Shown one piece after another: positions 13,059 to 60,593 of a stretch of DNA of 64,000 bases; positions within the stretch are counted from its first letter, which is position 1, and the number at the start of each line of letters is the position of its first letter. The position numbers were made by a program, and so were the translations under genes. The notes beneath the pieces are model-generated. The model was not told where the DNA came from. It saw only the letters and a list, made by a program, of their open reading frames with translations, and ran no database searches. The stretch is from Nitrosomonas communis (lineage in GTDB: Bacteria; Pseudomonadota; Gammaproteobacteria; Burkholderiales; Nitrosomonadaceae): positions 310,001-374,000 of the forward strand of contig NZ_CP011451.1 of assembly GCF_001007935.1 (NCBI RefSeq), written 5' to 3'.

Positions 13059-14906
13059 CTATTCGACTGTTACAGCTTTTGCTAAATTTCTTGGTTTGTC
13101 TACATCTGTACCTTTCTGCAGAGCGACATGATAGGCTAGCAATTGTAATGGAATAGTATGTAAAATAGGGCTTAGCATATCAGCATACTCCGCTAATCGG
13201 ATAATGTGCACGCCTTCGCTCTCCTGAATTTGGGAATCAGCATCGGCAAAAACATATAGCTCTCCTCCCCGCGCGCGAACTTCCTGTAAATTGGATTTAA
13301 GCTTCTCCAATAATGCATCATTAGGTGCAATGGCAATCACAGGCATTTCCTTATCAACCAGAGCAAGCGGACCATGTTTAAGCTCACCAGCCGCATAAGC
13401 TTCTGCATGAATATAGGAGATTTCTTTGAGTTTGAGCGCACCTTCTAAAGCAATAGGATAATGTACTCCTCTTCCAAGGAATAAAGCATGGCGTTTTTGA
13501 AAGAAATTGGCAGCCCATTGAACCACTTGCGGCTCAATTTGCAGTGCAAGCTGGATAGCAGTAGGCAAACGCCGCATTGCCATCAACATTTTCTGCTCAC
13601 ACTCGTGAGAGAACTTGTTACGAAGTTTGGCTAGAGTGACAGTCAACAGCATCAATGCAGCTAATTGCGTTGTAAATGCCTTGGTAGAAGCTACGCCGAT
13701 TTCAGGCCCCGCACGTGTCAGAAAACGCAGATCTGTCTGTCGAATCAATGCACTTTCAGGAACATTACAAATTGCTAAACTATACTGATGCCCTAATGAT
13801 TTAGCATAACTGATTGCGGCCAGGGTATCTGCCGTTTCACCCGATTGAGAAATCCCTACCACGAGTGTATTTTTATCTGCTATTGGATCCCGATAACGGT
13901 ATTCGCTTGCGATTTCTACACTGCATTGTAAGCCAGCTATGGTCTCCAACCAATATTTGGCAACGAGACCCGCATGATAGCTTGTGCCGCAGGCCAGGAT
14001 CAAAATACCATTTGTCTGTCTAAAAATTTTCTCAGCTTTACTGCCGAATAATTGTGGAGAAATGGATTGTGCATTTGATACCATTTCCAATGTATTAGCG
14101 ACCGCTACGGGTTGCTCGAATATTTCCTTTTGCATGAAGTGCGCATAGGGACCCAATTCTACTGCATCGCGAGTTAGAGTACTTTCTTGGACAGGACGAG
14201 TCACCTCTTTACCTTTCTTACCTTTGACACAGCTCAATATGCGGTAGCCGTCTTGATGTAATTCAGCCACATCTCCTTCCTCTAAATAAACCATATTTCG
14301 CGTTACCTGAACTAAGGCTGACGCATCTGATGCAACATAGTTACCTTCTGTTCCCAAACCCAATAATAGAGGCGCACCGTTCCGCGCAACCACAATATGA
14401 TCAGGTCGCGTTTCTTCAACTACCGCAATCGCATAGGCGCCTTGCAACTCTGCAACAGACGAGCAAACGGATTCAAGCAGGTCATGAGTTGTCTTGAGAT
14501 TGAATGAAATAAGATGTGCTATTACTTCGGTATCAGTATCCGAAGAAAATTTGAATCCTTCAGATTCAAGACGTTTCCGTATTGCTTCATGATTTTCAAT
14601 AATACCATTATGGACGACAGCTATTTTTCTTTCATCTCCTGACAAATGGGGATGTGCATTACGTTCGCTAGGAGCCCCATGGGTCGCCCAGCGTGTATGA
14701 GCAATGCCGGTGAATCCATGTGTTTTCTGGAGATGAGCAAGCTTGCTCAATTCACTCACGCGCCCGGTAGTACGTAATCTATGCAATTTTCCGTTTGCAA
14801 TAGCAATCCCTGCCGAATCATAACCACGATATTCCAGCTTCGATAAACCTTCTAACAAAACAGGTACTACGTCGTTTTTAGCAATGGCTCCCACTATTCC
14901 GCACAT
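13059..14906 (-). CDS. glmS: Glutamine--fructose-6-phosphate aminotransferase GlmS
   Basis: GlmS makes glucosamine-6-phosphate from fructose-6-phosphate and glutamine, the entry to UDP-GlcNAc. The start is set at the ATG at 14906 so that the catalytic Cys is residue 2 (MCGIVGAIA). An upstream in-frame start at 14921 would leave Cys1 unexposed. The 615-residue protein has the N-terminal glutaminase (TRWATHG, HNGIIEN, SDTDTEV), two SIS domains ([42 protein letters not shown]) and the C-terminal [12 protein letters not shown]. It is 43 bp downstream of glmU. No glmS ribozyme is expected or seen. Confidence 0.97.
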
Positions 14907-14949
14907 AATGTCTCCTCTCACGCTTATTTTTGTTTAATACAATCATGAA

Positions 14950-16323
14950 CTATGCTTTGTTCTTTTTGGGACGTTTCCAACCATTAATACTCACTTGCCT
15001 GGCACGGGCCAACGTTAACTGATCTTCAGGAGTATCCCGGGTAATTGTAGAACCTGCACCGATAGTAGAACCTCGCGCTATTCTTACGGGCGCTACCAGT
15101 TGCGTATCTGAACCGACAAAAACATCATCCTCAATAATAGTCTGATGCTTAAGAGCACCATCGTAATTACAGGTGATTGTTCCAGCCCCAATATTTACCT
15201 TAGCACCAATTACTGCATCACCTATGTAACTGAGGTGATTTGCTTTGCTCCCCATGCCAATTTTGCTATTTTTTATCTCGACAAAATTACCAACATGCGC
15301 TTCATCATAAAGCCTGGTTCCGGGACGGATGCGCGAATAGGGCCCTACATGACAGTTTTTTCCTATCTCTGCGTTTTCTATCAAACTAAACGGGAAAATT
15401 GTTGATCCCGGGTAGACAGTGACATTTCGTAAAATACAATGAGCACCAATTTTGACGTCATCACCAAGTTGCACATTGCCTTCAAAAATACAATTAATAT
15501 CGATTTCAACGTTACGGCCACAGACTAACTGCCCACGTACATCAATACGGGTAGGATCCGTGATCATAACACCCCGTTCTAACAGATTTTTTGCATTATC
15601 ACGTTGATAAATGCGTTCAAGCTCGGCCAAATGCAATTTACTGTTAATTCCCAGTACCTCCCAGCTATGAGCTGGATGGGCAGCATCTACCCTCACACCT
15701 GCCTTTACAGCCATCTCAATAACATCGGTAAGGTAATACTCGCCTTGCGAATTTTTGTTTTGCAGCTTAGGCAAAAACTCACGTAAATATGAATTAGGCA
15801 ATACCATAATCCCTGTATTAACTTCCCGGATTTGGAGCTGAAATTCACTGGCATCCTTTTCCTCGACAATAGCTTGAATCGCACCTGTTTCTTGATTCTT
15901 GACGATCCTGCCATAGCCAAATGGGGCATCCAGCTCTGCCGTCAACAGAACAAAATTGTTTTCGGTTGCCTTTGAGATCAGCCTGTCTAATGTATCGACT
16001 TTTATTAAAGGGACATCACCCAGCAATACCAGCGTTACCCCCTCATTATCAAGATAAGGCAGAGCCTGTAACAAAGCATGGCCCGTGCCTAGCTGAACTT
16101 CCTGTGGCACCCAATTAATTTCACTATCATTGATCGCACTTTGCACCATCTCACCACCATGCCCATAAACTACGCAGATTTTTTTAGGTGAAAGTGCTCT
16201 GGCAGCATCAAGTACATGTCCTAACAAGGGCTTCCCAGCCAGCAAATGTAATACTTTAGGCTGAGATGATTGCATTCTTTTACCCACTCCAGCAGCCAAA
16301 ATAACTATGTTTAGATCAGTCAC
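14950..16323 (-). CDS. glmU: Bifunctional UDP-GlcNAc pyrophosphorylase / GlcN-1-P acetyltransferase GlmU
   Basis: GlmU acetylates glucosamine-1-phosphate and couples it to UTP, giving UDP-GlcNAc. The 457-residue protein has the N-terminal nucleotidyltransferase motif LAAGVGKRMQSSQPKVLH with LGDVPLI. The C-terminal left-handed beta-helix is built of hexapeptide repeats (IGDAVIGAKVNIGAGTITCNYDG, FVGSDTQLVAPVRIARGSTIGAGSTIT). It heads glmU-glmS. The product feeds peptidoglycan and lipid A, and here plausibly the neighbouring exopolysaccharide genes. Confidence 0.97.
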   Translation of the reverse strand: MTDLNIVILAAGVGKRMQSSQPKVLHLLAGKPLLGHVLDAARALSPKKICVVYGHGGEMVQSAINDSEINWVPQEVQLGTGHALLQALPYLDNEGVTLVLLGDVPLIKVDTLDRLISKATENNFVLLTAELDAPFGYGRIVKNQETGAIQAIVEEKDASEFQLQIREVNTGIMVLPNSYLREFLPKLQNKNSQGEYYLTDVIEMAVKAGVRVDAAHPAHSWEVLGINSKLHLAELERIYQRDNAKNLLERGVMITDPTRIDVRGQLVCGRNVEIDINCIFEGNVQLGDDVKIGAHCILRNVTVYPGSTIFPFSLIENAEIGKNCHVGPYSRIRPGTRLYDEAHVGNFVEIKNSKIGMGSKANHLSYIGDAVIGAKVNIGAGTITCNYDGALKHQTIIEDDVFVGSDTQLVAPVRIARGSTIGAGSTITRDTPEDQLTLARARQVSINGWKRPKKNKA

Positions 16324-16439: not shown

Positions 16440-16470
16440 TATTTAAATTATCAATCAAACAAAAAAGCGA

Positions 16471-16884
16471 TTATTCCGCATCCTTGTCAAAATAAGCAGC
16501 CGCATCAAGAAGCGGTTGGGCATTGCCGCCTTGTTGAGCAACAATGGCTGCCGATTCTCTAAGTCGCTCTGCCAGCGATTTCGCTTGCTGAGGGTAAAAA
16601 GAATTTTTCTCTCCCTGTTCCCGCCCATCTCTTATCCCCCTTCCTTTTTTTAACTTATGCTCTTCCTCTTTCCGTATTTTATTTCTCTGGTACTCAAACT
16701 CATCTTCATGATGCTTTTTGTAGTTTTTTTGTCTCGGTGCTGCATCAGATTCCCAGGAATTATCGGGTTCTTGTCCTGCGGCAGCTGCATGTGCTGATAT
16801 TGGCGCTCCTGTACCTGTCACTATAGCCACGGCGACAATCAGCAGCACATGAGCGGTTCTCAACGGGTGAATGTTATGTTTCAT
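16471..16884 (-). CDS. Small charged secreted protein, copy 1 (unknown function)
   Basis: This 137-residue protein has a clear signal peptide (hydrophobic residues ~12-32, cleavage likely near SAHA|A). The mature part is rich in Lys, Glu and Arg (KIRKEEEHKLKKGRGIRDGREQGE). The C-terminal helix, NSFYPQQAKSLAERLRESAA and on to GGNAQPLLDAAAYFDK, is almost identical to that of copy 2 at 21557. The start has the good ribosome site AGAGGAT. It follows the Agd3-like gene by 57 bp, exactly as in copy 2, so the two genes form a conserved unit. No family is recognised. A chaperone-like or polymer-binding accessory of the deacetylase is an inference only. Confidence 0.8.
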   Translation of the reverse strand: MKHNIHPLRTAHVLLIVAVAIVTGTGAPISAHAAAAGQEPDNSWESDAAPRQKNYKKHHEDEFEYQRNKIRKEEEHKLKKGRGIRDGREQGEKNSFYPQQAKSLAERLRESAAIVAQQGGNAQPLLDAAAYFDKDAE

Positions 16885-16941
16885 TTGATTATCCTCTTAA
16901 TGGTTAACCTTTTTCTATTAAATTACCGAAGGAGCAGTCGC

Positions 16942-19068
16942 TTACTGCGTCAGCCCCCGATTAACCGTGAATACTGTTGGTGTCGTAGTTACGTTAACTG
17001 CACGGACAAATTGACCGCCATATGTTCCGCCACCGGTAATTCCCGTCATCTCTAGAGTGATAGCTTTGTTTGCCGATAAGGCGACTTGGTTGGTGCTCCG
17101 ATTCCATTTCGCCTGAATAATCGCAGTCTTCGCGTCGAGTCTCTGTTTTGTCTTATCGCCAATTTGCCAATATGGCAAATTCAAGACTGGCAATTTAAAC
17201 AATCGCTCGTAGGCTGCAAAGACAGCGTTTAACCAATCAAATATCAGCGTATTGCCATTTGCATAATTGGCTGCATTCGATTGATGAAAAAAATGAGGCC
17301 ATTTATTAAAGGACAGCATATGGCGTACCGCATTGTCGGCTTCGGCTGCGAGAATTTCTGCATAACTCCGGGGAGTGCAGATTGCCCCGGGTATCGAGCA
17401 AGGATCTTGGCCGGCATTGACAAACCGATCGTGAAACATATAGTTGTATTCATCAACCAATTGATCCGGATTAATGACATTCACGAACACATTGGTTGGC
17501 CAGCGCGGCAGCATAATGCGATCCGTCGATTTGCCATCATCGTACTGAGTAATATATTGCTCAACGTTCTGTGCTCGCTGCGAGGAGTCGGAAGCTATAT
17601 ATTGGACATTGGTATTGGCAGCGGCGCGTAGGAATAGCGGATTGGCGCCACCTTGATCAAACGCTACATCGTCATCCTGAACATTGGCCATATTTGTGTG
17701 CAGCAAAGGATCATCGGTGCATTTGCGGTCTTTCAGCCCAGCGTGATTGCCCGTTAGCAGGACCCGGTTGTTATTCGCTTGCTCAGGCAGCCCCAACAGT
17801 CCCCACACCGTCCGGTTCTTGGTAATTTCTGCCTGGATAGGCGCCACGGTAGTAAAGGTTTCATAATCACACGGGGCATTCGCTGGCACGGGTGGTTTAT
17901 CCATGTCTGCATGTGTGAAAGTGTGGTTGATGTAACGGAACGCATCTTTGTTGGCGATTACTGCGGCCACCAAATCTTCTGTCAGGTTCGCCACCGGTGC
18001 CGGTGCTTCCGGATCAATCACTGCCCCGGATCCATTGAATGGGAAATCCAGTTTGAAAGCGCCAGCCGTTGGATGAGTAGCCCGAAAAGCAGCCTGCTTC
18101 TCCACGAGATTGCTGATATCGCTACTGTTCAAGCGATAGCTTTGCAACGGATTATCCGCTTTAAGGCTGGGATCATATAGTGTATTCGCTAAGAACAAAT
18201 CATCCAAATGAGCAGCCATATGCACGCGACGTGCACCCACGAACACACCTTGCGTCGCCCAGTTGATAAACTCGTAGGCCAGTACTTTTGAATGGATGAG
18301 AAACGAAGCATGGGAAATGGTCGAGATCATTACTTCACGCAACGGTGTGGTCTGGTTGGGCAGCTTGTATTGTACGATCGATAACAGCGCCTCTCCATTG
18401 GTGGTTTGCAGCAGTGGCATAACGCTCGGGATAGTGCCGTCGCGTGGACCCACAGCATCATTTCGGGGAGTGGCGGCAAAGGCAAAGTCGGTGATCGGCA
18501 ACGGATTGGCCAGGTTTACCGATTCAAGTACCTCTTTTTGATAGGCAGCCGGTACTGACCACTGCGTATTGTAGCTGGCCCCACTGGATGAAAACACCAG
18601 ACCATAATCCAGGTAGATGCCGAACGGTGCATTGGGGTCAAAGTAAGTGGCGGGCCAACCCGATAAGACGGCTTCACGGACCTTAAAGTCCTTTTCATAA
18701 TTGTGCAGAATGTCCCACTCTGCCGGGGTGAAGTTGGGAGTCAAATCGGAGATTGTGAGGATAATGCCGTTGTAGCTACCTACACAACCCGCATCTACGG
18801 AGTTGCAGGCTACGCCATTCAAAGAGGCGAGCATATCGGCAGTTAAATCCTGGGTGTTAGCATTCAATACGTCATAGAGCACGCCTATTTCATCCAGCAC
18901 AGGCTTGATGTAGCTGAGTCCCAGATCCTGGGTTTCATCTCCTGTTGAAATGACTAATACTTTCAAATTGACCGTATTATCGGCAAAGGCAGGCGGCGCT
19001 ATCATTAATGCTAGCCACATTGCCACGGTAGCAAGCAGCCCCCCTGTTAATCTCCAATTCTTTATCAT
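16942..19068 (-). CDS. Secreted Agd3-like polysaccharide de-N-acetylase, copy 1
   Basis: The 708-residue protein has a signal peptide (residues 1-29, AFA|D). An N-terminal region follows (LKVLVISTGDETQDLG), then a putative carbohydrate-binding domain, then a central deacetylase domain. That domain has the metal/catalytic pair HLDDLF (H287, D289, D290) and the second motif NHTFTHADMD (H382, H386). The overall pattern and length match Agd3, the Aspergillus fumigatus galactosaminogalactan deacetylase (CAZy CE18 with CBM87). The resemblance is from memory of that family, not a search. The start has the strong site GAGAGGAG. A sigma-54-type promoter lies about 120 bp upstream. Predicted role: removing acetyl groups from GalNAc-rich extracellular polymer. 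Confidence 0.78.
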   Translation of the reverse strand: MIKNWRLTGGLLATVAMWLALMIAPPAFADNTVNLKVLVISTGDETQDLGLSYIKPVLDEIGVLYDVLNANTQDLTADMLASLNGVACNSVDAGCVGSYNGIILTISDLTPNFTPAEWDILHNYEKDFKVREAVLSGWPATYFDPNAPFGIYLDYGLVFSSSGASYNTQWSVPAAYQKEVLESVNLANPLPITDFAFAATPRNDAVGPRDGTIPSVMPLLQTTNGEALLSIVQYKLPNQTTPLREVMISTISHASFLIHSKVLAYEFINWATQGVFVGARRVHMAAHLDDLFLANTLYDPSLKADNPLQSYRLNSSDISNLVEKQAAFRATHPTAGAFKLDFPFNGSGAVIDPEAPAPVANLTEDLVAAVIANKDAFRYINHTFTHADMDKPPVPANAPCDYETFTTVAPIQAEITKNRTVWGLLGLPEQANNNRVLLTGNHAGLKDRKCTDDPLLHTNMANVQDDDVAFDQGGANPLFLRAAANTNVQYIASDSSQRAQNVEQYITQYDDGKSTDRIMLPRWPTNVFVNVINPDQLVDEYNYMFHDRFVNAGQDPCSIPGAICTPRSYAEILAAEADNAVRHMLSFNKWPHFFHQSNAANYANGNTLIFDWLNAVFAAYERLFKLPVLNLPYWQIGDKTKQRLDAKTAIIQAKWNRSTNQVALSANKAITLEMTGITGGGTYGGQFVRAVNVTTTPTVFTVNRGLTQ

Positions 19069-19189
19069 AAATACTCTCCTCTCAGCTCACATAAATATCT
19101 CATGAAGTTAAAGCACCTATTTTCTGCAATTTCTTATTCCCTTCATTACCTTCGAAGATTACAAGGGCATAAACTGTATTAAATTACAA

Positions 19190-19205
19190 AGCATGATCTA
19201 TGCCA
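19190..19205 (-). promoter_or_regulatory. Sigma-54-type promoter of the Agd3-like gene, copy 1
   Basis: Read on the minus strand the site is TGGCATAGATCATGCT. It has the essential GG and GC doublets 10 bases apart and matches TGGCAC-N5-TTGC at most other positions. The -12 element lies about 120 bp before the start codon. A 17-bp dyad-like element lies 65 bp further upstream, an ordinary distance for an enhancer-binding activator site. An equivalent promoter is present in copy 2. Confidence 0.72.
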
Positions 19206-19269
19206 AACAATATAAATTCAGAATAATCAGCGTGTTATAGACAAAAGAAAGCGTAACACCGAATTGAAG

Positions 19270-19286
19270 TGTAAAATCCTGCGACA
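19270..19286. promoter_or_regulatory. 17-bp upstream activator-like element (TGTAAAATCCTGCGACA)
   Basis: This imperfect dyad (TGT...ACA ends with AA/TT inside) is one of five near-identical elements in this region. It sits 65 bp upstream of the sigma-54-type promoter. It is the most diverged of the five. Confidence 0.6.
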
Positions 19287-19813
19287 TAATTTTGCTGCGC
19301 TTAGAAAGAAATCACACTCTCGATTTCGTACAAAAAGATCGAGTTTTGGAGACTAAGTGAGCTTGGATTGGTGAGGTAAAGAAGAGCCAAGAATCGAGTA
19401 TTAATGCATTGGCGTGAGCAGCGCAAGCAGTTTGTGCAAGTGTTACCGTAATAGGACGTACATAATGCGAGCGATCGAGTTGAGCAGATTAAGCTCGTCC
19501 GCCGGGCAGTGAATAGAAATGTCCGCACTCACTGACAGGTTGTTGGAAAAACTATCTATACTACCGCTGAAGTGTTAAAAAAAACGCAAAATGCTCATTT
19601 ATCAGGTATAAACTCTGCTTCCCCGTCTGCTTTTGTCTATCATCAGCTAGCGAATAAATAGTTAAAAATTTCATCATTCCATGATTCTTGTGCTGTTTGG
19701 AAATTCAGAAATTAGGATGAGTCGCTCAATCATGTGGAAAGCTGAAAATAAAAAGCAAAAAAATGCTTGAGAATTAAAAATATCGATTTATTGAATATAC
19801 TGCTTAATCAAAA

Positions 19814-19830
19814 TGTAAAATTTTCCGACA
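19814..19830. promoter_or_regulatory. 17-bp upstream activator-like element (TGTAAAATTTTCCGACA)
   Basis: This second element of copy A lies 146 bp before the GH114 start codon. It could serve that gene, or it could simply be the distal element inherited with the block, since the same element with the same flanks occurs at 24925. No convincing sigma-54 promoter was found between it and the GH114 gene. The rest of 19287-19813 holds no gene. Confidence 0.55.
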
Positions 19831-19975
19831 GAATTTTATTCAAAGCTTAAATAAATTATTCCATTTCGGTGCATTATCACTTTATATACATACAAATAAC
19901 ATTGATAAAACAAAATATTAATTAATTTACACCTTTTTGTAGTCAAACAGAGACATTAAATATTTACCAGTAAAA

Positions 19976-21316
19976 TTGTTCACTTTTAAAATTTATTTAC
20001 CCAAAAAAATAAAAAGATCACTTCAGCTGTTATTGGTCTCGGCGCTACTTACAGCCAATGTCAATTTTACCGAGTTCATTTCCCTATCCCGTTCAATCAA
20101 TATAGGCTCAACCTCTTCACCACCGTTCAATGCTCTTACTGTTCAAGACCAACAAGGTTCAGACAATAACTTGAATAGCCATGTAGAATTTAAACCAATT
20201 GACAAGCGATATGTAGGAATTTCTCAATTCAATGCGCCCTCCATTCCAAATCCTACAATTCAGGAATTAAAATTTCACGCGAATTATCGTGGTCCAGAAA
20301 AATCCACAGAACACCAGGAATTTCAACTACTTAATAATTTCGAGAAATGGTTACCTATTGCAGACAACTTTAATGCTCAAAACGGGTTAAGGAGCAATGA
20401 TATCAATTCATCAATAAAAGATGCCGGTCAATTTATAGACAACAATCAGCAGGAGGCTTTGCGCTATAAAACAAAAAGTAGCGTAGATAAAAATCAACCC
20501 GACTATTTTGCTTTCAAAATAAATAGCTCGGGATCAAATTCTACCATGGCCATATCAGGGTTTACGGATGGCACGACTGCTATGCCAAGGACAACTACTA
20601 GAAACAGGAGAGGCCGTTGGCAACCAGTTCCTGGATTAAAATGGCAAATTCAATATACAGGCACACTCGATACTTCCTTAAATGTCGATGTTTATAATAT
20701 TGACTTGTTTGATATCAGTGCAAAAGTCATCTCGGAATTACAATCAAAAGGTAAGCATATCATTTGTTATTTTAGCGCAGGCAGCTATGAAAACTGGCGT
20801 CCCGATGCTAACGCATTTCCAGCATCGATTCTCGGTCGAAAGCTTGATAGCTGGGCGGGCGAGAAATGGTTAGATATCCGGCAATTAGATATTCTGATTC
20901 CCATCATGCAAGCACGCATGAAGTTGGCCGCCGACAAAGGTTGTCATGCTGTCGATCCTGACAATGTTGACGGTTACAGTAATAATACGGGATTCCCTCT
21001 TAGTTATAATGATCAGCTGGCTTACAACATCGCTATTGCTAATACGGCTCATAATCTTGGATTAGCTGTAAGTTTGAAAAATGATGTTGAACAAATCAAG
21101 GATCTTGTAAATCATTTTGACTTTGCTGTAAATGAAAAGTGTTTTCAATATGACGAATGCACTATGCTCATACCATTCATCTCTGCGGGAAAAGCAGTGT
21201 TCGGTATTGAATATTATCTTTCAGATTCAAGTTTCTGTCCGCGCGCAAATGCAATGAATTTTGATTTTCTCAAGAAGAAATTATCTCTGGATGCTTGGAG
21301 AAAATCCTGCAGATAG
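19976..21316 (+). CDS. Secreted GH114-family (Ega3-like) glycoside hydrolase
   Basis: The frame opens at a TTG at 19976. The nearest upstream in-frame stop is at 19940 and no ATG is available, so TTG is the likely start, with a weak ribosome site. The 446-residue product has a basic N-terminus with a hydrophobic signal segment (~14-32) and a low-complexity Asn/Gln-rich linker to about residue 205. A C-terminal GH114 TIM-barrel follows: PGLKWQIQYTG, NIDLFD, IICYFSAGSYENWRPD, AVDPDNVDGYS and AVNEKCFQYDEC. GH114 includes Ega3, the Aspergillus endo-alpha-1,4-galactosaminidase, and the hydrolase part of PelA. Predicted role: trimming or releasing a galactosamine-containing polymer. It lies between the two Agd3-like units. 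Confidence 0.82.
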   Translation: MFTFKIYLPKKIKRSLQLLLVSALLTANVNFTEFISLSRSINIGSTSSPPFNALTVQDQQGSDNNLNSHVEFKPIDKRYVGISQFNAPSIPNPTIQELKFHANYRGPEKSTEHQEFQLLNNFEKWLPIADNFNAQNGLRSNDINSSIKDAGQFIDNNQQEALRYKTKSSVDKNQPDYFAFKINSSGSNSTMAISGFTDGTTAMPRTTTRNRRGRWQPVPGLKWQIQYTGTLDTSLNVDVYNIDLFDISAKVISELQSKGKHIICYFSAGSYENWRPDANAFPASILGRKLDSWAGEKWLDIRQLDILIPIMQARMKLAADKGCHAVDPDNVDGYSNNTGFPLSYNDQLAYNIAIANTAHNLGLAVSLKNDVEQIKDLVNHFDFAVNEKCFQYDECTMLIPFISAGKAVFGIEYYLSDSSFCPRANAMNFDFLKKKLSLDAWRKSCR

Positions 21317-21556
21317 TTGAAGCAGAGGATGTGCACAACCCAATATAGAAGAATATCTGTATCAAACAGATTGGTTTGATATAATTCAAAGATCTTGGTG
21401 AGCATATTTTGAATTAATTCGACCAGAAAAACAGGTGCTATTTGATCCTTTCTCCTGATCGAATTAATGATTCACTCTTATTTCATATTTTATTATCAGT
21501 ATATTAAATGATCATTCAGGGATGAAAATTTAAGCTGCTCATTGAACAAAAAGCGG

Positions 21557-21949
21557 TTACTGACCTTCCTTGTCAAAATAAGCAGCCGCATCAAGAAGCG
21601 GTTGGGCATTGCCGCCTTGTTGAGCGACAATAGCTGCCGATTCTCTAAGTCGCTCTGCCAGTGATTTCGCCTGCTGAGGGTAAAAAGAATTTTCCTCTCC
21701 CTGTTCCCGCCCCTCTCTTATCCCCTTCCCTTTTTTTAATTTATGCTCTTCCTCTTTCCGTATTTTATTTATTTGCTCTTCAGATTCATCCTTATTATGT
21801 CCCGGTGCCGCCTCAGATTTACCGGGATTATCGGGTTTTTGTTCTTCGGCTGCATGGACCGATATCGGTAACCCTGTACCTATCATCATAGCCATAGTGA
21901 CAATCAGCAAAGCAAGGGCAGTTCTCAATGAGTGGATGTAGTGTTTCAT
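21557..21949 (-). CDS. Small charged secreted protein, copy 2 (unknown function)
   Basis: This 130-residue paralogue of the protein at 16471 has the same signal peptide layout (cleavage near SVHA|A), the same charged core KIRKEEEHKLKKGKGIREGREQGE, and a nearly identical C-terminal 40 residues. It is shorter because of deletions in the variable acidic segment after the signal peptide. The ribosome site AGAGGAT and the 57-bp spacing to the upstream deacetylase gene are unchanged. The most conserved part is the C-terminal helix, which is therefore probably the functional part. Confidence 0.8.
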   Translation of the reverse strand: MKHYIHSLRTALALLIVTMAMMIGTGLPISVHAAEEQKPDNPGKSEAAPGHNKDESEEQINKIRKEEEHKLKKGKGIREGREQGEENSFYPQQAKSLAERLRESAAIVAQQGGNAQPLLDAAAYFDKEGQ

Positions 21950-22006
21950 TTGATTATCCTCTTAACGGTTAACCTTTTTCTATAAAATCACCGAAGCAAC
22001 GATTGC

Positions 22007-24133
22007 TTACTGCGTCAGCGCGCGATCTACTGTGAACACTGCCGGTGTCGCAGTTACGTCAACTGCCTGGATAAACTGACCACCATATAAATCCCCACCG
22101 GCAATCCCCGTGACCTCTAGATTCACCGCTTTGTCTGCCGATAAAGTGACTTGATTAGTAGTTCGATCCCACTTTGCTTGAATAACCGCAGTCTTAGCAT
22201 CAAGCCTGTTTTTTGTTTTATCGCCAATCTGCCAATAGGGCAAATTCAAGACCGGTAAATTAAATAATTGCTCGTAGGCTATGAAGACAGCATCTAACCA
22301 GTCAAATATCAGCGTATTGCCATATGCATAATTGGCCGCATTCGATTGATGGAAAAAATGAGGCCATTTATTAAAGCTCAGCATATGTCGTACCGCGTTG
22401 TCGGCTTCAGCAGCGAGAATTTCTATATAATTCCGAGGAGTGCAGATCGCCCCTGGTATGGTGCAAGGATCCTTACCGTCATTGATAAATCGATCGTGAA
22501 ACATATAGTTGTATTCACCCACCAATTGATCCGGGTTAATGACATTCACGAACACATTGGTTGGCCAGCGCGGCAGCATAATACGATCAGTGGCACTACC
22601 ATCCTCATACTGAGCAATATACTGCTCAACGTTTTGTGCTCGCTGCGAGGCGTCGGAAGCCACATATTGCACATTGGTATTGGCAGCAGCTTGCAGCAAC
22701 AGCGGATTGGCGCCACCTCGATCAAACGCCACATCGTCATCCTGAACATTAGCCATTTCCGGATGCAGCAAAGGTTCACCAGTGCACCTGCGATCGTTGA
22801 GGCCTGAATGATTGCCCGTAAGCAGAACCCGGTCGTTTTCAGCTTGCTCAGGAAGAGCCAATAGTCCCCACACCGTCCGATTCTTGGTAATTTCTGCCTC
22901 GATAGGTGCTGCGCCAGTGAAAGTTTCATAATCACATGGGGCATTCGCCGGCACGGGTGCTTTATCCATGTCTGCATGCGTAAAAGTGTGGTTGATGTAA
23001 CGAAACGCATCTTTGTTGGCGATCACTGCTGCCACCAGATCTTCCGTCAGGTTTGCAACCAGAGGGGTTGCGGCCGGATCAACCACTGCCCCGGATCCGT
23101 TGAATGGAAAATCCAGTTTGAAAGCGCCAGCCGTTGGATGAGCAGCCCGAAAATCAGCCTGCTTGCTTATGGCATTGCTGATATCGCTGCTGGTCAAGCG
23201 ATAAGTTTGCAACGGGTTAGACTCCTTGAGGTCGGGATCCCACAGCTCATTCGCAATGAATAAATCGTCCAAATGAGCGGCCATATAAACGTAACGCGCC
23301 CCTACAAACACCCCTTGAGTTGCCCAGTTGATAAACTCGTAAGCCAGTACTTTTGAATGAATGAGAAATGAAGCATTGGCGATGGTCGAGATCATCACCT
23401 CGCGCACCGGTGCTGTCTGGTTGGGCATCAGGTACTGAACGATCGATACCAGCGCTTCTCCATTGGTGGTCTGCAGCAGTGGCATAACACTCGGGATAGT
23501 GCCGTCACGTGGACCCACAGTATCATTTCGCGGGGCGGCGGCGAAGGCAAAATCGGTAATCGGCAATAAATTTGCCTGATTTACCGATTCAAATATTTCT
23601 TTTTGGTAGGTGGCAGGCACTGACCACTGCCCGATATAGCTCGCTCCACTGGATGAAAACACCAGACCATAATCCAGGTAAATGCCGAACGGCGCATTGG
23701 GGTCAGAGTAGGTAGCCGGCCAACCCGATAAGACGGCTTCACGGACTTTAAAGTCCTTTTCGTAATTGTGCAGAATGTCCCACTCTGCCGGTGTAAAGTT
23801 GGGAGTCAAGTCGGATATGGTCAGGATAATGCCGTTGTAGCTACCCACACAACCCGCATCCAGGGAGCTGCAGGCTACGCCATTCAAAGAAGCAAGCATA
23901 TCGGCAGTTAAATCCTGTGTGGTAGCATTGAATACGTCATAGGGCACGCCTATTTCATCAAGAACAGGCTTGATGTAGCTGAATCCCAGATCCTGGGTTT
24001 CGTCTCCTGTTGAAATGACCAATACCTTCAAATTGACAGCATTATCGGCAAAGGCAGGCGGTATCATGAATAATGCTAACCACATTACTACTGAGACAAG
24101 CAGATTAATTCCTTTTTCATAGTTCTTTTTCAT
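22007..24133 (-). CDS. Secreted Agd3-like polysaccharide de-N-acetylase, copy 2
   Basis: With the ATG at 24133 the protein is 708 residues, the same as copy 1. That start has GAGGAG eight bases upstream; in-frame Mets at 24166 and 24139 are worse placed. The signal peptide ends PAFA|D. The catalytic motifs AAHLDDLF and NHTFTHADMD are intact, as are the C-terminal aromatic segment LPYWQIGDKTK and the final propeller-like strands. By eye it is roughly 85-90% identical to copy 1. Both paralogues keep all motif residues, so both are probably active. Its control region has two tandem sigma-54-type promoters. Predicted role as for copy 1. Confidence 0.78.
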   Translation of the reverse strand: MKKNYEKGINLLVSVVMWLALFMIPPAFADNAVNLKVLVISTGDETQDLGFSYIKPVLDEIGVPYDVFNATTQDLTADMLASLNGVACSSLDAGCVGSYNGIILTISDLTPNFTPAEWDILHNYEKDFKVREAVLSGWPATYSDPNAPFGIYLDYGLVFSSSGASYIGQWSVPATYQKEIFESVNQANLLPITDFAFAAAPRNDTVGPRDGTIPSVMPLLQTTNGEALVSIVQYLMPNQTAPVREVMISTIANASFLIHSKVLAYEFINWATQGVFVGARYVYMAAHLDDLFIANELWDPDLKESNPLQTYRLTSSDISNAISKQADFRAAHPTAGAFKLDFPFNGSGAVVDPAATPLVANLTEDLVAAVIANKDAFRYINHTFTHADMDKAPVPANAPCDYETFTGAAPIEAEITKNRTVWGLLALPEQAENDRVLLTGNHSGLNDRRCTGEPLLHPEMANVQDDDVAFDRGGANPLLLQAAANTNVQYVASDASQRAQNVEQYIAQYEDGSATDRIMLPRWPTNVFVNVINPDQLVGEYNYMFHDRFINDGKDPCTIPGAICTPRNYIEILAAEADNAVRHMLSFNKWPHFFHQSNAANYAYGNTLIFDWLDAVFIAYEQLFNLPVLNLPYWQIGDKTKNRLDAKTAVIQAKWDRTTNQVTLSADKAVNLEVTGIAGGDLYGGQFIQAVDVTATPAVFTVDRALTQ

Positions 24134-24261
24134 CAGCATTCTCCTCGCACTCTCAACTTTGCTCACATAAAAAATCTAACTTATGAAGTTTTACAAGCTA
24201 TATAGTTTCTGTAATTATTATCACCTTCCAAAATCATAAAAATAAACTATATTAAGTAGCG

Positions 24262-25902: not shown

Positions 25903-28683
25903 TTAATGGCAAACTAGCGAGGCATTCTCCAGCTTGGTTATAGGGAAAACAAATTTCCAGCTTCGGTTCTGTTGCTGTCCATCAAGCTTTCCATCTCTCC
26001 AATTAATATAGCATTTACGTTTTGAAGATGCTATGACTAATTCTAACGGCATATGCGCATGTACATGTAAATTAGCGCCTTCCGCAGTCTTTTGCCACTT
26101 TCCGACCTCTCCGTTGCTATGTAATAGATAGGTGGAAGAAGGAAGCTCAGATGTTGTATTCAATAGAGCTTGCCCATGATTAGGTAAAAGATGCACATAC
26201 CGCCCCTGCTTAATGTCACGAACGCCGATTATTCCTTCAGAATTTTCCAAATCTGGCCATCCTAGCGATACTGGCAAACGTAAAGTACGTAATTTATTGA
26301 GTCCTCTGATATCCCAAGTACCATCGATTCTGCGGGACAAAGTAATACTCCGAAATTCATTTGCCTTCTGAGCATACTCACTCACCCAAATAGCTCTTGG
26401 TTCCTGTTTAATGCTCCAGTCATAAACGGATTGAAGCGCATTGATAGATGCTATCTTACTTCCCGAATAAAAGTGATAATGGATATGCAATGGTTTCAGG
26501 CGCAGCGGGCTATCGGTAAGCTGCATAGTTTCAATGACTCGATTAAATCCGTAAAAAGGGCCTTGCCAGCTGTTCGTAAAAACATGCTCACTTGCAATGG
26601 GAGCATATACCTGAAATTGATCGCCAATTGCATAGCCCAGAGGGGGCACACGTGTCATGGTTTTTTCATCTTTGCTTATAGTCGCACCACCGCCATTCAT
26701 ATTCTCCAACCCAAGTGAATGCGTCAGAGTTAAAGCTTCTTTATCTGCCAGCGCATCACCAGTCCAGAAAAAAACACGAACTTGCTTTTTCTCAGGCGCC
26801 AGCTTTTTATTAATATAATTTACCGACCCAGCGATTTCCCGTTCCAAGCTAAACTTATAATCAGGAATGGAAAAGTTAAAATCATCACCTCTCGCATCAA
26901 TATTGTTCTTTGGAAACCATGTTGAAGGATGACTATAAGAATGGCTAGCGATCTCAACATTATTTAGATCAAAAATGTTTCGCGCCACTTTCTCGATTTC
27001 AGTAAGCCTATCTGTAGAGTTACCGTTTGATACTTCTCCTTCAATTATAGAAACCGTCGATGGCAATTTATATTTTTTTAAGAAATAATCCTGAATCACT
27101 TTTATTGTTAAGGGTGTTCCCGGTATCTCTGCTTTATTGCTGGATCCATCACCATCAATTTGCACCAGTAATAAGCGTCTGCCATTCTCAGTGGTGACAT
27201 CAGGAACAGGTATTTCTGGTAGGTCGAGAGCCTTGGTTAAAAATTTAAATGGGTCAATAATCCACCGCTGACGTCCCTCATAGCCAGTCTCAATTACATA
27301 AGGATGGAAGGCAACTCCACCCCACTGTCCAGTAAATACAGCGACCCAAGATTGTTTATTTTGATCTATCAAACTTAGATGTGTATCAATATTTCTTGAA
27401 GCTTGCCAGGTGGTGAACCCGCGTGTTTTTGGCTGAGGTTTCACTTCATAACCAATAATTTGATCGCTCCGTTCAATTTTGAGCGGCTCTTTTATTGCTG
27501 ACTGACTTAATTTGACCTGCAAATGCTGCAAAAAAGTATTATTAGCTTTAAAACCTAGATTACCCAGAATAGCAACCTTTATGCCAGAATCTATTTGGCT
27601 TAATAGCCAATCTCTATAATTTATTGGTCCTCGTAAAGTATCGTTGTTGAACCAGGTGACAATCCCGGCATATTGTCCTATCAGTGATTGAGTGGGTAGT
27701 CCACTGTTTACATCTAAATAATCAACTGTATAACCCATATATTCTAGTGGCATGGCAAGTAATTTATGCACATCAGTTCGCTGCAATCCTTCTGGATGCT
27801 CTTGCCCATCATAAAGCGCTAAAATTCGTCTTGGAAATATTTCCGACAATCCGACACCAAGAATATCGAGTTTTGGAGTGGCCACCCAAGGGGTAAAACC
27901 CAAGTCAGATATTCGTTTAGCAGTCTTTCGCGCCAATTCTCTCTGCTTTGGGTCAACATAATCGATAACAATTATCTGTAATCCATATTGATCTCGTGTC
28001 TGCCTGAGCTTCTCCAGCAACCAGTGATGATCTGCTTCTTTAACTTCGGTATATTCTTGTTTAGCTGGGTCCCAGCCTTCGAATAGTGATTCTGCAGCCA
28101 GCGCGACAGCATATCGACCCACTTCCGGTAAAACCTCAAACCCACGGTTAAAAATAAGTTTAACCCCTGGGAAATGTTGATGAATACGACTAATGAGGCT
28201 TGCCAATGCTTTTTCCTGAAGCAATCGACCATCAGCATCATGGACAGCGCTTTGATAGCTATCCATGGTATCCAGAAAAAAGCCGCGATATCCTTCTTTC
28301 CACAGCTTGCTTAAATATTTATTAATGAGATAGTCATGCCACCCTTGTTGGGTTAAGTCAATAATACGACTCCCCCATTTTTCATTACTGCCCAGAATCC
28401 AGGATTTAGGAATTTCTGAATACCAAGAGCGCGTCAGATGGATTTCTCCTATACTTATATAGGCAAATACGTTTGTTCCTTTAGCATGGAGATCATCCAG
28501 ATTATCCATATTCTCTGGCTCCACCACCACTTGCTGATAATGTGAAAGTAAATTCACCGGAACAGGCCGACCATAGAAAAATGCGATACTCTGGTTTGCC
28601 TGTAGGGGCAAGCAGATACTTAATAAAATTATGCTATGAATAAGGAATACAACTGCTCGATAGTTCAAGAAGATTAATTTCAT
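25903..28683 (-). CDS. pelA: Pel polysaccharide deacetylase/hydrolase PelA
   Basis: PelA partly deacetylates and cleaves the GalNAc-rich Pel polymer in the periplasm. The start is the ATG at 28683 (MKLIFLNYRAV, with AGAG upstream), giving a signal peptide and 926 residues. Domains in order: GH114-like hydrolase (~30-285; VFAYISIGEIH, GFFLDTMDSY, ALAAESLFEGWD), a GATase-like middle domain (~290-470), a deacetylase (~500-770) with IDGDG (D510, D512) and HSYSH (H581, H585), and a C-terminal beta domain. It is the last gene of the pelDEFG-A run, separated from pelG by a damaged copy of its own 5' part. Confidence 0.93.
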   Translation of the reverse strand: MKLIFLNYRAVVFLIHSIILLSICLPLQANQSIAFFYGRPVPVNLLSHYQQVVVEPENMDNLDDLHAKGTNVFAYISIGEIHLTRSWYSEIPKSWILGSNEKWGSRIIDLTQQGWHDYLINKYLSKLWKEGYRGFFLDTMDSYQSAVHDADGRLLQEKALASLISRIHQHFPGVKLIFNRGFEVLPEVGRYAVALAAESLFEGWDPAKQEYTEVKEADHHWLLEKLRQTRDQYGLQIIVIDYVDPKQRELARKTAKRISDLGFTPWVATPKLDILGVGLSEIFPRRILALYDGQEHPEGLQRTDVHKLLAMPLEYMGYTVDYLDVNSGLPTQSLIGQYAGIVTWFNNDTLRGPINYRDWLLSQIDSGIKVAILGNLGFKANNTFLQHLQVKLSQSAIKEPLKIERSDQIIGYEVKPQPKTRGFTTWQASRNIDTHLSLIDQNKQSWVAVFTGQWGGVAFHPYVIETGYEGRQRWIIDPFKFLTKALDLPEIPVPDVTTENGRRLLLVQIDGDGSSNKAEIPGTPLTIKVIQDYFLKKYKLPSTVSIIEGEVSNGNSTDRLTEIEKVARNIFDLNNVEIASHSYSHPSTWFPKNNIDARGDDFNFSIPDYKFSLEREIAGSVNYINKKLAPEKKQVRVFFWTGDALADKEALTLTHSLGLENMNGGGATISKDEKTMTRVPPLGYAIGDQFQVYAPIASEHVFTNSWQGPFYGFNRVIETMQLTDSPLRLKPLHIHYHFYSGSKIASINALQSVYDWSIKQEPRAIWVSEYAQKANEFRSITLSRRIDGTWDIRGLNKLRTLRLPVSLGWPDLENSEGIIGVRDIKQGRYVHLLPNHGQALLNTTSELPSSTYLLHSNGEVGKWQKTAEGANLHVHAHMPLELVIASSKRKCYINWRDGKLDGQQQNRSWKFVFPITKLENASLVCH

Positions 28684-28764
28684 ATTTTTCTCTTTTCCAT
28701 GAGATAAGCACGAAGCCAACTACCTTCAGCAAAACCGAGAAACTTGCCTCTTAGATGGGTTAAA

Positions 28765-29660
28765 TTAATTTTTAATTTCTGATTTTATGATGATGCGGGG
28801 AAATATTTCCGACAATCCGACACCAAGAATATCGAGTCTTGGAGTGGCCACCCAAGGTGTAAAACCTAAGTAAGATATTCGTTTAGCAGTCTTTCGCGCC
28901 AATTCTCTCTGCTTTGGGTCAACATAATCGATAACAATTATCTGTAATCCATATTGATCTCGTGTCTGCCTGAGCTTCTCCAGCAACCAGTGACGATCTG
29001 CTTCTTTAACTTCGGTATATTCTTGTTTAGCTGGGTCCCAGCCTTCGAATAGTGATTCTGCAGCCAGCGCGACAGCATATCGACCCACTTCCGGTAAAAC
29101 CTCAAACCCACGGTTAAAAATAAGTTTAACCCCTGGGAAATGTTGATGAATACGACTAATGAGGCTTGCCAATGCTTTTTCCTGAAGCAATCGACCATCA
29201 GCATCATGGACAGCGCTTTGATAGCTATCCATGGTATCCAGAAAAAAGCCGCGATATCCTTCTTTCCACAGCTTGCTTAAATATTTATTAATGAGATAGT
29301 CATGCCACCCTTGTTGGGTTAAGTCAATAATACGACTCCCCCATTTTTCATTACTGCCCAGAATCCAGGATTTAGGAATTTCTGAATACCAAGAGCGTGT
29401 CGGATGGATTTCTCCTATACTTATATAGGCAAATACGTTTGTTCCTTTAGCATGGAGATCATTCAGATTATCCATATTCTCTGGCTCCACCACCACTTGC
29501 TGATAATGTGAAAGTAAATTCACCGGAACAGGCCGACCATAGAAAAATGCGATACTCTGGTTTACCTGTAGGGGCAAGCAGATGCTCAATAAAACCATGC
29601 TTGATTAAGCAATACAACTGCTCGATAGTTCAAGAAGACTAATTTCATTTTTCTCTTTCC
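28765..29660 (-). pseudogene. Partial duplicate of pelA (GH114-like domain only), frameshifted
   Basis: About 900 bp here are near-identical to the 5' part of pelA and its upstream flank. The pelA-like start and first ten codons (MKLVFLNYRA) are present near 29650. A one-base deletion in the signal-peptide codons then shifts the frame to a stop. The surviving open frame (28765-29598, 277 residues) starts MVLLSICLPLQ and covers only the hydrolase domain, ending IFPR plus seven unrelated residues. A truncated product from the internal ATG cannot be excluded, but the export signal is damaged. This is a tandem duplication within the pel locus. Confidence 0.85.
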
Positions 29661-29737: not shown

Positions 29738-31120
29738 TTAATCTCCAGATTTATAATGTAGCATAAATGTCTCATACACTAACAGGTTAAGTCTTTTTGA
29801 GACGATGACCATTCCAACTACTGTTGTTAACGCAACGGATAAGGCAAATCCATAACCATAAAATACAGGGCCCAGATATTGGCTCAGAAACGTCAATATA
29901 ATATTTGAGGCTAGAAATAAAAAACAGAGATAGAGTGCATCTTTACGATAATCAAAATAAAACAATAAATTGAGAACCGCCAGCAGTAATACTTGTATTC
30001 CGACCGCAATCAAATCAATATTTAACAATACTTTATAAAAAGGTGATATCCCTACCCATATTAGTAATTTATCTCCTAAAGCCAACAGGATAACGATAGT
30101 CACTCCCTGCACTTTAATGATTTCGAAAAATCCTCTTCGAATGGTTGCAACCATTTCTTCATAGATTTCTAAAATAAGCCTTAAGGAAGCACCGCCATTA
30201 ATAGCACCATAAAACTTTGTATATTTTTCTACAAAATCTGTTTCTATTCGCAATAAAAATACGGCCATCCCAGGTATGATTGATAAATAAGCAAGAAAGA
30301 TTGGAAGATCATAAAGCTCTGATCCTCTTAAAGGAAAAATGATCGAAGTACTTGTTTGAGGATTGAACCAGAAAATAAACTTATCAGCCCAAATAGCTAC
30401 GTTATAAAGTAAGCCAGTAATTGCCAAGCTTGGAAATATCTGGTTTCGTCGCAAAAAATCAAAAGCAATCAGTTTATTACTAGAATAGGAGTTAAAAACT
30501 ACAACCATAAGCATAAATAATAAGATGCCTTGTCCTACAACAAACCCAGAAAGCAAGCCTTCCAGTCCAAACTTACCCAATTCTTTAGAAGCCCATACCG
30601 TTATCCCATAACCTAACAGAAATGCTAACAAAATTTCACGATATGCCTTGAGTCCCGATAAAATGATCACTACTATCCAAATAGTAGAAAGAATAATCAA
30701 ACCACTTAACATTAATAAGCGATACAATACAGAACCAGCAAAGAAATAAATTAAACACAAGCTTGCAAGTGTTCCGATTACAGTGATTACAAGACATATG
30801 GCACCAATCAGGTTTGGCAGAACTAGTTCCTCATGCTTTTCATACACCCTGTCAGCAATAAAACGCGTGATGATTAACTGTAATGGACCAGTCAGAATTA
30901 AAGATATCGCCATCAGATAAGTTACAGATATCTGGAACTGTCCTACAAAATAAGGGACAGAGGAGCTATCTGTGCTGATGAAACCAATTAATAGTATCCC
31001 AACGATCGATAATACCCATGGGCCAGAACCAATAATTCCGGCGAAACTATACGCTAACAGTACTCCAGATAGAGTATCTGCCTTCATCAGTTCACGTAGT
31101 CTGAACCCAATGCCTGCCAT
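29738..31120 (-). CDS. pelG: Pel export flippase-like membrane protein PelG
   Basis: PelG is the polytopic inner-membrane component of the Pel synthase/export complex, distantly Wzx/MOP-like. The 460-residue protein opens MAGIGFRLRELMKADTLSG and has about 12 hydrophobic segments, including LLLVYSFAGIIGSGPWVLS-like motifs typical of PelG and SVALTTVVGMVIVSKRL near the end. Its start shares one base with the pelF stop. The neighbours pelF, pelE and pelD are in the usual order. Confidence 0.94.
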   Translation of the reverse strand: MAGIGFRLRELMKADTLSGVLLAYSFAGIIGSGPWVLSIVGILLIGFISTDSSSVPYFVGQFQISVTYLMAISLILTGPLQLIITRFIADRVYEKHEELVLPNLIGAICLVITVIGTLASLCLIYFFAGSVLYRLLMLSGLIILSTIWIVVIILSGLKAYREILLAFLLGYGITVWASKELGKFGLEGLLSGFVVGQGILLFMLMVVVFNSYSSNKLIAFDFLRRNQIFPSLAITGLLYNVAIWADKFIFWFNPQTSTSIIFPLRGSELYDLPIFLAYLSIIPGMAVFLLRIETDFVEKYTKFYGAINGGASLRLILEIYEEMVATIRRGFFEIIKVQGVTIVILLALGDKLLIWVGISPFYKVLLNIDLIAVGIQVLLLAVLNLLFYFDYRKDALYLCFLFLASNIILTFLSQYLGPVFYGYGFALSVALTTVVGMVIVSKRLNLLVYETFMLHYKSGD

Positions 31121-32649: not shown

Positions 32650-33641
32650 AATTGTACTACCGATGTTAATTGAGGATAAGCTGCTGGATAATCTATCTCT
32701 GCCATTAATTGCTTTACCTTGTAGTATTGATGTCTATGAAAAGCAATTTCTGCATAGTAAATCAATAATTTTTTATGCTCCATTCCCAGACTCTCAGCTT
32801 TTTTAAATTGTTCATATGCACGCTCAAAATTTCCCAGCTTCAGCAAGATTTGTGCATACTGGAAGCATAATCCCACATCTTGGGGGTAATATTTAAGACC
32901 CAGTTCAATATATTTGCAGGCCATATTAAGCACATAATTTCGTGCTTCCCCTTGAGTTAGACCAAGATTTGCTAATTCCCAATAGTCATTTGCAATCTGA
33001 CGATACAAGCGTTTATTTCTTGAGTTTTCTATTTTTTCAAGTTTTTGCTTCGAAAGCTTAATTCGTTCGCTGATCCCATGCTCTTTTCTGTCCAATAAAG
33101 CGTAAGCAAGCAACCTGATATCATCAACTGGATCACTAAGTGCCATACGCAAAAGTGGAATGGCATCCCGATCCTTTATTTTTAATGAAGCATATATCGC
33201 CTTAAGTCTTTTATCAGGATTTCTGGACCGATACAAACTATGTAAGTTTGCAAAATTATCATCTATAGCTTGCGCCGGTATATCAGGTAGATTCCTGATT
33301 TTACTTAAGCTCATAGCAAAATTGGTTTTTTTGGGTTTAGGAGAATGACGAATGATGAATGGTACTGCCAAGGTTAATCCTACTAATCCTAACACCGGCA
33401 AATAAAAAACAACCACAAAAAAGAAAATATTGATCTTCAACTGAGGTTGTTTTCGATTAGATGCCATTATTGTTGGAAAAATACAGGCAGCTATGATACT
33501 CGCAATAAAATGAAGAAAAAGAGATGTTATTAAAATTTGTTCAGATAAAGATTCATTTAGAATTAACTTAAAGCCGTATATTTCTAATCCTAATGCTAGA
33601 ACAAGTAGAATTAAATTACACAGAATTAGAAATAATCGCAT
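32631..33641 (-). CDS. pelE: Pel synthase complex membrane protein PelE
   Basis: PelE links PelD to PelF and PelG in the inner-membrane complex. The 336-residue protein has N-terminal membrane segments (about residues 3-25, 35-58 and 75-95). The cytosolic part contains a HEAT/TPR-like stretch (KAIYASLKIKDRDAIPLLRMAL, DIRLLAYALLDRKE, ELGLKYYPQDVGLCFQYAQILLKLGNFERAYEQFKKAESLG). It overlaps pelF and lies 9 bp after pelD. Confidence 0.9.
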   Translation of the reverse strand: MRLFLILCNLILLVLALGLEIYGFKLILNESLSEQILITSLFLHFIASIIAACIFPTIMASNRKQPQLKINIFFFVVVFYLPVLGLVGLTLAVPFIIRHSPKPKKTNFAMSLSKIRNLPDIPAQAIDDNFANLHSLYRSRNPDKRLKAIYASLKIKDRDAIPLLRMALSDPVDDIRLLAYALLDRKEHGISERIKLSKQKLEKIENSRNKRLYRQIANDYWELANLGLTQGEARNYVLNMACKYIELGLKYYPQDVGLCFQYAQILLKLGNFERAYEQFKKAESLGMEHKKLLIYYAEIAFHRHQYYKVKQLMAEIDYPAAYPQLTSVVQFWQKRN

Positions 33642-44785: not shown

Positions 44786-44822
44786 TTTTATAGAAAACCC
44801 AATATAAATATTAATTTATAGT

Positions 44823-45983: not shown

Positions 45984-46119
45984 TTATTCACCAAATAATT
46001 TTAATAAAATTTATGCTTAAAAACTTCTCGCAACTTTCCGTTAAATCGACTCCTAGATCCTTATCTCTGAAATCAGTGTCAGTGATACGACAAGGAAGAC
46101 AAAGATAAGGTCGTTGAGC

Positions 46120-59158: not shown

Positions 59159-59185
59159 TTGGTTTATATATTATATTTGCTTTAT

Positions 59186-60574
<1,389 letters not shown>

Positions 60575-60593
60575 CTAAAAACTAAAATATTGA

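Follow-up and report, generated by a model that had tools for sequence, protein, structure and literature searches.

The window analysed here is a stretch of 64,000 nucleotides from the ammonia-oxidising bacterium Nitrosomonas communis (bases 310001-374000 of a genome held as a single 4.07 Mb contig). It contains two genes for bacterial relatives of the fungal deacetylase Agd3 (family CE18), each followed by a small gene, a gene for a GH114 protein resembling the fungal hydrolase Ega3, and a locus for the sticky biofilm polymer Pel. Moulds employ Agd3 and Ega3 in tailoring a polymer similar to Pel. The CE18 cassette, its small partner and the GH114 protein probably act on Pel as a polymer of alpha-1,4-linked N-acetylgalactosamine (GalNAc), with CE18 either sharing in its deacetylation or having taken this step over. 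The features of the cassette region are the following.

16942..19068, minus strand: CE18 (Agd3-like) deacetylase A, 708 residues, Sec-type signal peptide by inspection
22007..24166, minus strand: CE18 (Agd3-like) deacetylase B, PF25115 53.7 bits, 84% identical to A
16471..16884, minus strand: small helical protein, copy A, probably secreted, 137 residues, downstream of CE18 A, no Pfam match
21557..21949, minus strand: small helical protein, copy B, probably secreted, 130 residues, downstream of CE18 B
16458..19038, no strand assigned: first copy of the segment of CE18 and small-protein genes (second copy 21545-24103; blastn 84.9%)
19976..21316, plus strand: candidate Ega3-like GH114 endo-alpha-1,4-galactosaminidase, 446 residues including a GH114_assoc domain at the N-terminus; transcribed divergently from CE18 A

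CE18 proteins, GH114 protein and small partner

Both CE18 proteins carry the motifs HLDDLF and NHTFTHADMD; CE18 B comprises 719 residues when read from a GTG and 708 when read from the ATG at 24133. A preliminary description of the window, made from its letters, had announced two secreted 708-residue proteins with an overall plan like that of Agd3. Reading frames and motifs were found where it had placed them; the label "secreted", here as for the other window proteins, reflects signal-peptide-like N-termini judged by eye and is kept as probable.

Assignment to the CE18 (Agd3) family was supported by profile, catalytic residues, fold and genome co-occurrence. In the Pfam search (cut-off 27.6), Agd3_CE (PF25115) reached 60.2 bits in CE18 A and 53.7 bits in CE18 B. 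The CBM87 profile (PF25116) gave 17.8 and 20.5 bits, under its cut-off of 27.6, so that of the profiles proposed in the preliminary description those for CE18 and GH114 were matched over cut-off in the window proteins and that for CBM87 was not. The CBM87 region falls inside the fold match, the three-domain architecture of the Agd3 family was found in the window proteins, and four distant CE18 relatives exceeded the CBM87 cut-off. The catalytic residues of motifs CM1-CM4 (Asp-Asp, HxxxH, Arg and the acid His), whose roles were taken from PMC7229062, were kept in the window proteins and invariant in 30 aligned proteins. A missing CE18/CBM87 profile match or a predicted structure without a NodB-type metal site had been named as grounds for giving up the assignment, and neither was encountered, though CBM87 stayed under its cut-off in the window proteins.

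In a PDB sequence search, Agd3 of Aspergillus fumigatus (CE18/CBM87, 6NWZ) was recovered at E 1.7e-9; the identity to Agd3 is about 20%. In contrast to Agd3, the window CE18 genes are bacterial, form a two-gene cassette with a small protein and lie beside Pel genes rather than in a galactosaminogalactan (GAG) cluster. The fungal cluster includes Sph3 (GH135) and a Gtb3-type synthase, where the window has PelF and PelG instead. The likeness to the human NDST1 N-deacetylase is one of fold only, and the polymer differs. The closest named relatives of the window CE18 proteins belong to Nitrosomonas communis and Nitrosomonas sp. Nm34.

The 446-residue protein between the two CE18 genes matched GH114 (PF03537, 279.7 bits) and, at its N-terminus, GH114_assoc (PF14741, 86.8 bits). 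The PDB search returned Ega3 of A. fumigatus (6OJ1, E 3.8e-57), with strong similarity over 208 residues and retention of the DPDNVDGY and NE(K/Q)C blocks, so that position, profile and PDB sequence match bear out the Ega3-like protein first noted between the two genes. It differs from Ega3 in being bacterial, in its additional N-terminal GH114_assoc domain and in being transcribed divergently from CE18. GH114 enzymes are described as using an Asp nucleophile and a Glu acid/base (PMC12054363). GH114 frames of 447-502 residues were found in exactly 11 of 125 family genomes, namely those with a window-type pel locus (defined below; likeness to the window protein over its full length was checked in 8 of the 11, window included). 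Within the conserved Asp/Glu blocks of the window protein, the Asp and Glu residues presumably divide these two roles between them. In 7 of the 11, GH114 and pel share a contig and are no more than about 20 kb apart; in G080 GH114 adjoins a CE18 gene on another contig, and in G104, G105 and G111 it lies elsewhere (G and L numbers are our handles for genomes and loci). The genome of the window's organism contains seven GH114-profile matches, two of which are PelA-type domains.

The segments formed by each CE18 gene and its small gene share 84.9% DNA identity over 2591 aligned columns (blastn). Since a small gene follows each CE18 gene in the window, the two CE18 genes are regarded as copies of one two-gene cassette. 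A third such cassette was located at 730 kb (L082:8314-10905), 0.4 Mb from those of the window; no pel gene was found in the 20 kb fetched around it. The small open reading frames of the window encode 130-137 residues with a signal-peptide-like start. For comparison, 30 CE18 loci were examined (29 from Nitrosomonadaceae and one from a Methylococcales metagenome-assembled genome), which are a part of the family's loci and from which CE18 genes cut by contig ends were omitted. The small frame lies directly downstream of CE18 in 27 of the 30; seven of these show a 4-nt overlap with the CE18 stop codon, L096 has a shortened start and L108 a degraded end. It is fused to the CE18 C-terminus in one locus (L104/G094) and was not found in two (L097, L098). 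Further fusions occur in P0081 and P0122. Beside five distant CE18 genes (L020-L023, L123), the partner was not recognised. At genome level it is present in 25 of the 26 CE18 genomes of the family (G112 is the exception), and among 99 CE18-negative family genomes only G090 showed a match, weak and partial, at the signal-peptide end. Pfam searching detected no domain in it, and all named entries among the best 120 of its 216 homologues are hypothetical or uncharacterised. Its predicted structure is helical (mean predicted local distance difference test score, pLDDT, 69), with high confidence only for the last two helices, and gave no fold match at E <= 0.001.

The Pel locus and its co-occurrence with CE18

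The Pel genes and the genes of presumed precursor supply are located as follows.

25903..28719, minus strand: PelA, GH166 hydrolase and CE21 deacetylase (PtPelA 9CGY, E 1.9e-199, residues 43-937)
28765..29598, minus strand: extra partial copy of the PelA GH166 part without the signal-peptide part (5TCB, E 1.7e-51), with stops upstream of the open reading frame
29738..31120, minus strand: PelG (PF16933, 489.4 bits)
31120..32649, minus strand: PelF glycosyltransferase (PF11997, 313.8 bits, and GT4 domains)
32631..33641, minus strand: PelE-like tetratricopeptide repeat (TPR) protein, by position and weak TPR matches; in related loci it keeps its place between PelD and PelF
33651..35033, minus strand: PelD-like cyclic di-GMP receptor (PF16963, 27.1 bits at a cut-off of 27, and position)
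50299..50859, minus strand: PelC-like lipoprotein (51% identity over 165 residues to the frame between PelB and PelD in L011)
52239..55832, plus strand: PelB outer-membrane export protein (PF24604 PelB C-terminal barrel, 266.6 bits)
56032..57051, minus strand: GalE-type uridine diphosphate (UDP)-sugar C4-epimerase
13059..16323, minus strand: GlmU-like and GlmS-like genes (amino-sugar precursor supply), by Pfam domains; flank module

PelF, PelG, PelA, PelB and, barely above its cut-off, PelD are all encoded in the window; PF11997 is taken by us to be the PelF domain. The PelC-like lipoprotein gave a weak FlgO match under cut-off. With the PelE-like and PelC-like genes, these account for the Pel locus that the preliminary description had placed next to the module, and its GalE gene is likewise present. 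This GalE has a Cys at what we take, by our own mapping of positions, to be the site where N-acetyl-capable GalE enzymes carry a small gate residue. At the DNA level, the partial GH166 copy matches the 5' part of pelA with 96.4% identity (926 aligned columns). This duplication is recent; its counterpart measures 277 residues in G080 and is a longer open frame in G010.

Across the family, Agd3_CE was found in 26 of 125 genomes and PelG in 29, and all 26 CE18 genomes are PelG-positive. A sample of the phylum, thin for PF25115 (398 genomes drawn, two positives), gave CE18 in 2/398, one of them the window's own genome and both PelG-positive, with PelG over cut-off in 30/398. Five further CE18 genomes, from another collection, all have PelG. 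In total, PelG is present in 32 of the 32 CE18 genomes searched for it, a set strongly clustered by kinship.

Two layouts were distinguished. In the window type, pelDEFG is followed by pelA, and the distance between CE18 and the pel genes is 1.2-9.6 kb in all 11 loci (in that of G104, the CE18 frame is cut by the contig end). In the second type (type 2, the Nitrosospira group), pelA is separated from pelDEFG by a gap of about 2.6-2.8 kb, and CE18 lies elsewhere in the genome. CE18 and pel also share one contig in L011. Duplication of the pel operon and rearrangement of pelA in Nitrosospira multiformis have already been noted (PMC7112194). In G489, CE18 is part of a frame of 1626 residues (L123:7617-12497, start uncertain), in which DUF11 and CARDB repeats follow the CE18 part and the end consists of a Gly/Cys-rich stretch, a hydrophobic segment and an Arg tail; this end presumably resembles a sorting signal.

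In its general form, the bacterial association of Agd3, GH114 and Pel is already published: bacterial homologues of Agd3, accompanied by GH114 genes and by Pel components of the outer membrane, were reported in 2020 (Bamford 2020, PMC7229062), in operons of Proteobacteria that combine these genes as the window does. The section of that paper concerned with them names Burkholderia, Moritella and Stigmatella and is silent on any small partner, on duplicated cassettes, on Nitrosomonadaceae and on loss of CE21.

The CE21 domain of PelA and the deacetylation of Pel

The window PelA aligns with Pseudomonas PelA (GH166 and CE21, 9CGY) across nearly its whole length and keeps the base Asp (D528), the metal Asp (D530), HxxxH and the acid His. 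It differs in having Gln for the base-activating His (H526 of P. aeruginosa PelA), and some relatives differ further in lacking the domain or the base Asp. Because of this Gln, homology to PelA is claimed here and CE21 activity is not. The same exchange (QxDGD) occurs in 10/10 full-length window-type PelA proteins, that of G521 counted. In type-2 PelA, HxDGD reads ExRGD in 22/22 operons, 20 of them in CE18 genomes; alignment of two of these proteins to solved PtPelA gave Asp528 to Arg and His526 to Glu, and the hydrolase motifs are kept in all 22. PelA consists of the GH166 domain alone in G030 and G086 (281-287 residues) and in G489 (frame of 317 residues). No CE21 part was found in these three genomes by whole-genome tblastn, a search that found CE21 at 32-39% identity in G522-G525. 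These readings cover the PelA genes within the DNA fetched, outside which that of G108 lies. A canonical CE21 motif is present in only 4 of the 32 CE18 genomes (G522-G525).

As controls, 28 CE18-negative Pel genomes of the phylum sample were read, and all 28 keep CE21 with the Asp; the His is present in 27 and replaced by Gln in one (G437). Their negative status derives from the PF25115 search alone, a profile that does find the distant CE18 proteins of L020-L023 and L123 at 65.9-83.4 bits. Four genomes with PelG under the curated cut-off (G215, G432, G446, G452) were dropped. The reading comprised the best match in each genome and two second copies, further copies in G138, G236 and G177 being outside it; one metal His of L177 falls on an N in the DNA, and the L193 sequence is truncated. 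The 22 type-2 proteins show a CE21 part less conserved than GH166 (identity 0.801 vs 0.886; mean dN, the nonsynonymous divergence, 0.123 vs 0.066), and this faster divergence fits relaxed constraint. CE21 is the more conserved part in 14 control PelA proteins (0.541 vs 0.443, with the same direction in four subsets) and in 7 of the 10 window-type proteins (0.786 vs 0.756).

Whether Pel leaves the cell depends, in P. aeruginosa, on its deacetylation. With PelA D528A, no cell- or matrix-associated Pel was detected in this species (PMC10269871). Where a natural Asp-to-Arg exchange stands in a pel operon that is otherwise intact, within a genome encoding CE18, a different deacetylase would therefore be needed, and CE18 would be the obvious candidate. 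PelADA of Bacillus cereus (CE26/CBM114), a non-CE21 Pel deacetylase with an Agd3-like three-domain plan (PMC13254593), shows that deacetylases of other families can serve in Pel systems; it differs from the window CE18 in being Gram-positive and in belonging to a separate family. Since CE21 is often altered or gone in CE18 genomes, CE18 most likely shares Pel deacetylation with PelA in the window's organism; in the Nitrosospira group, the Nitrosomonas pair G030/G086 and G489, it has most likely taken this step over. The pathway would then run as follows. UDP-GalNAc would be supplied by GalE together with GlmS/GlmU, and the chain would be built and moved into the periplasm by PelF/PelG. Acetyl groups would be stripped from Pel, presumably there, by CE18 with its small partner; the GH166 part of PelA and the GH114 protein would cut deacetylated stretches, and the product of PelDEFG would be exported by PelB/PelC. 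A bolder version is put forward tentatively: in ammonia oxidisers, and independently in one or more further families of their order, CE18 may have displaced CE21 in making Pel exportable, in ammonia oxidisers with the small partner (sometimes fused), leaving PelA as hydrolase and scaffold.

Several observations weigh against a takeover or against its generality. The window PelA may itself be active, given the base Asp, metal Asp, HxxxH and acid His that it keeps. Met666 of Agd3 (CM4), reported as important and highly conserved though not counted among the catalytic base, the acid and the metal ligands (PMC7229062), corresponds to Phe593 in the window CE18 proteins. Both CE18 and an intact CE21 motif are present in G522-G525, with CE18 and pel on different contigs; conversely, G114 (98% complete) and G106 (93%) have Arg-type PelA and no CE18 was found in them. 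A universal handover from CE21 to CE18 was rejected on these grounds. For G114 (L120), a genome of the Nitrosospira group, this leaves two options: a Pel that does not function, or a further deacetylase. Replacement of the base-activating His by Gln was also considered as a mark of takeover, but G437 has this form without CE18, so that Gln alone is weak evidence. Five genomes (G104, G105, G107, G111, G115) hold, besides type-2 PelA, a window-type PelA that keeps the Asp. The absence of CE21 in G030, G086 and G489 was read from drafts of about 90, 60 and 40 contigs, respectively, with a completeness of 99-100%. Type-2 CE21 is under purifying selection (median dN/dS about 0.09, from the 92 of 231 pairs with dS, the synonymous divergence, under 1.5), so the domain keeps some role. 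Finally, an independent-pairs test on the PelG tree (a quick tree with support from the Shimodaira-Hasegawa-like approximate likelihood ratio test, SH-aLRT, only) yielded 4 pairs on well-supported branches and 6 on all, numbers at which no significance is possible; with so few independent events, the relation between CE18 presence and CE21 state is a correlation only. The CE21 labels on this tree were partly assigned before PelA was read; all but that of G108 have been read since and agree.

Activity of both CE18 and the CE21 domain of PelA on Pel, redundantly or with different deacetylation patterns and with no takeover, is the reading to which the residues kept in the window PelA, the intact motif in G522-G525 and the purifying selection on type-2 CE21 would all be suited. 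It is held to be rather unlikely, given that CE21 was not found in G030, G086 and G489 and that the catalytic base is Arg in all 22 type-2 operons. The many CE18 copies away from pel genes (L082 and the genomes with type-2 loci only), and the seven GH114-profile matches, two of them PelA-type domains, would suit enzymes of foraging or antagonism that attack the GAG or Pel of neighbouring fungi or bacteria and merely travel with pel; PelG in 32/32 CE18 genomes searched, and CE21 alterations in the same genomes, which better fit modification of the cell's own polymer, make this improbable. Another polymer as substrate, such as that of the NfrA/NfrB/WecB locus (38149-48060), would agree with the presence of this locus in the same island. 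However, no relative of NfrA, NfrB, WecB, DUF2334 or DUF4434 at or above 40 bits was found in 45 mapped CE18/pel loci (each of at most about 20 kb), the Nfr locus has DUF2334 and DUF4434 proteins of its own, and PelG occurs in every CE18 genome searched, so that such a substrate is very improbable. The bacterial GAG-like tailoring module that the preliminary description had suggested is supported, its relation to Agd3 and Ega3 and its link to Pel holding by profile, residues, fold (CE18 only) and co-occurrence.

Among the matches listed in the open-access literature, none was found that reported a loss of CE21 alongside CE18, or the small partner (supplements and subscription papers were outside this scope, and the result is not proof). 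The conserved small partner beside CE18, PelG in all 32 CE18 genomes and the loss or alteration of CE21 beside CE18 seem to be new observations. Beyond the published association, the analysis adds that CE18 in nitrifiers likely shares the deacetylase task of PelA or has taken it over, and that a conserved partner offers a starting point for asking how a free deacetylase might reach the Pel export machine. Should CE18 have taken the place of CE21 in nitrifiers, the key tailoring enzyme of a Pel system would be exchangeable, a virulence enzyme of fungi would have a counterpart with the same task in bacterial biofilms, and the view of the two active sites of PelA as conserved wherever pel operons occur would need revision; these sites have been described as conserved with minor differences (PMC12022489). 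Nitrifier biofilms matter in soil and in wastewater treatment.

The surrounding polysaccharide island

The genes described above form part of a polysaccharide island (16324-58735) between the glmU/glmS-like genes (13059-16323) and ATP synthase genes (58736-63568). ATP synthase genes and glmU/glmS are often neighbours in bacteria; the island looks inserted there. Transposase genes or remnants lie within it at 36971-37873, 48717-49121 and 49851-50273. The second polysaccharide locus (38149-48060) encodes a DUF4434 protein, an NfrA-like TPR protein, a WecB-type epimerase, a DUF2334 protein and an NfrB-like glycosyltransferase that carries a cyclic di-GMP-binding motif; it resembles the E. coli pathway for the NGR glycan outlined in PMC8669472.

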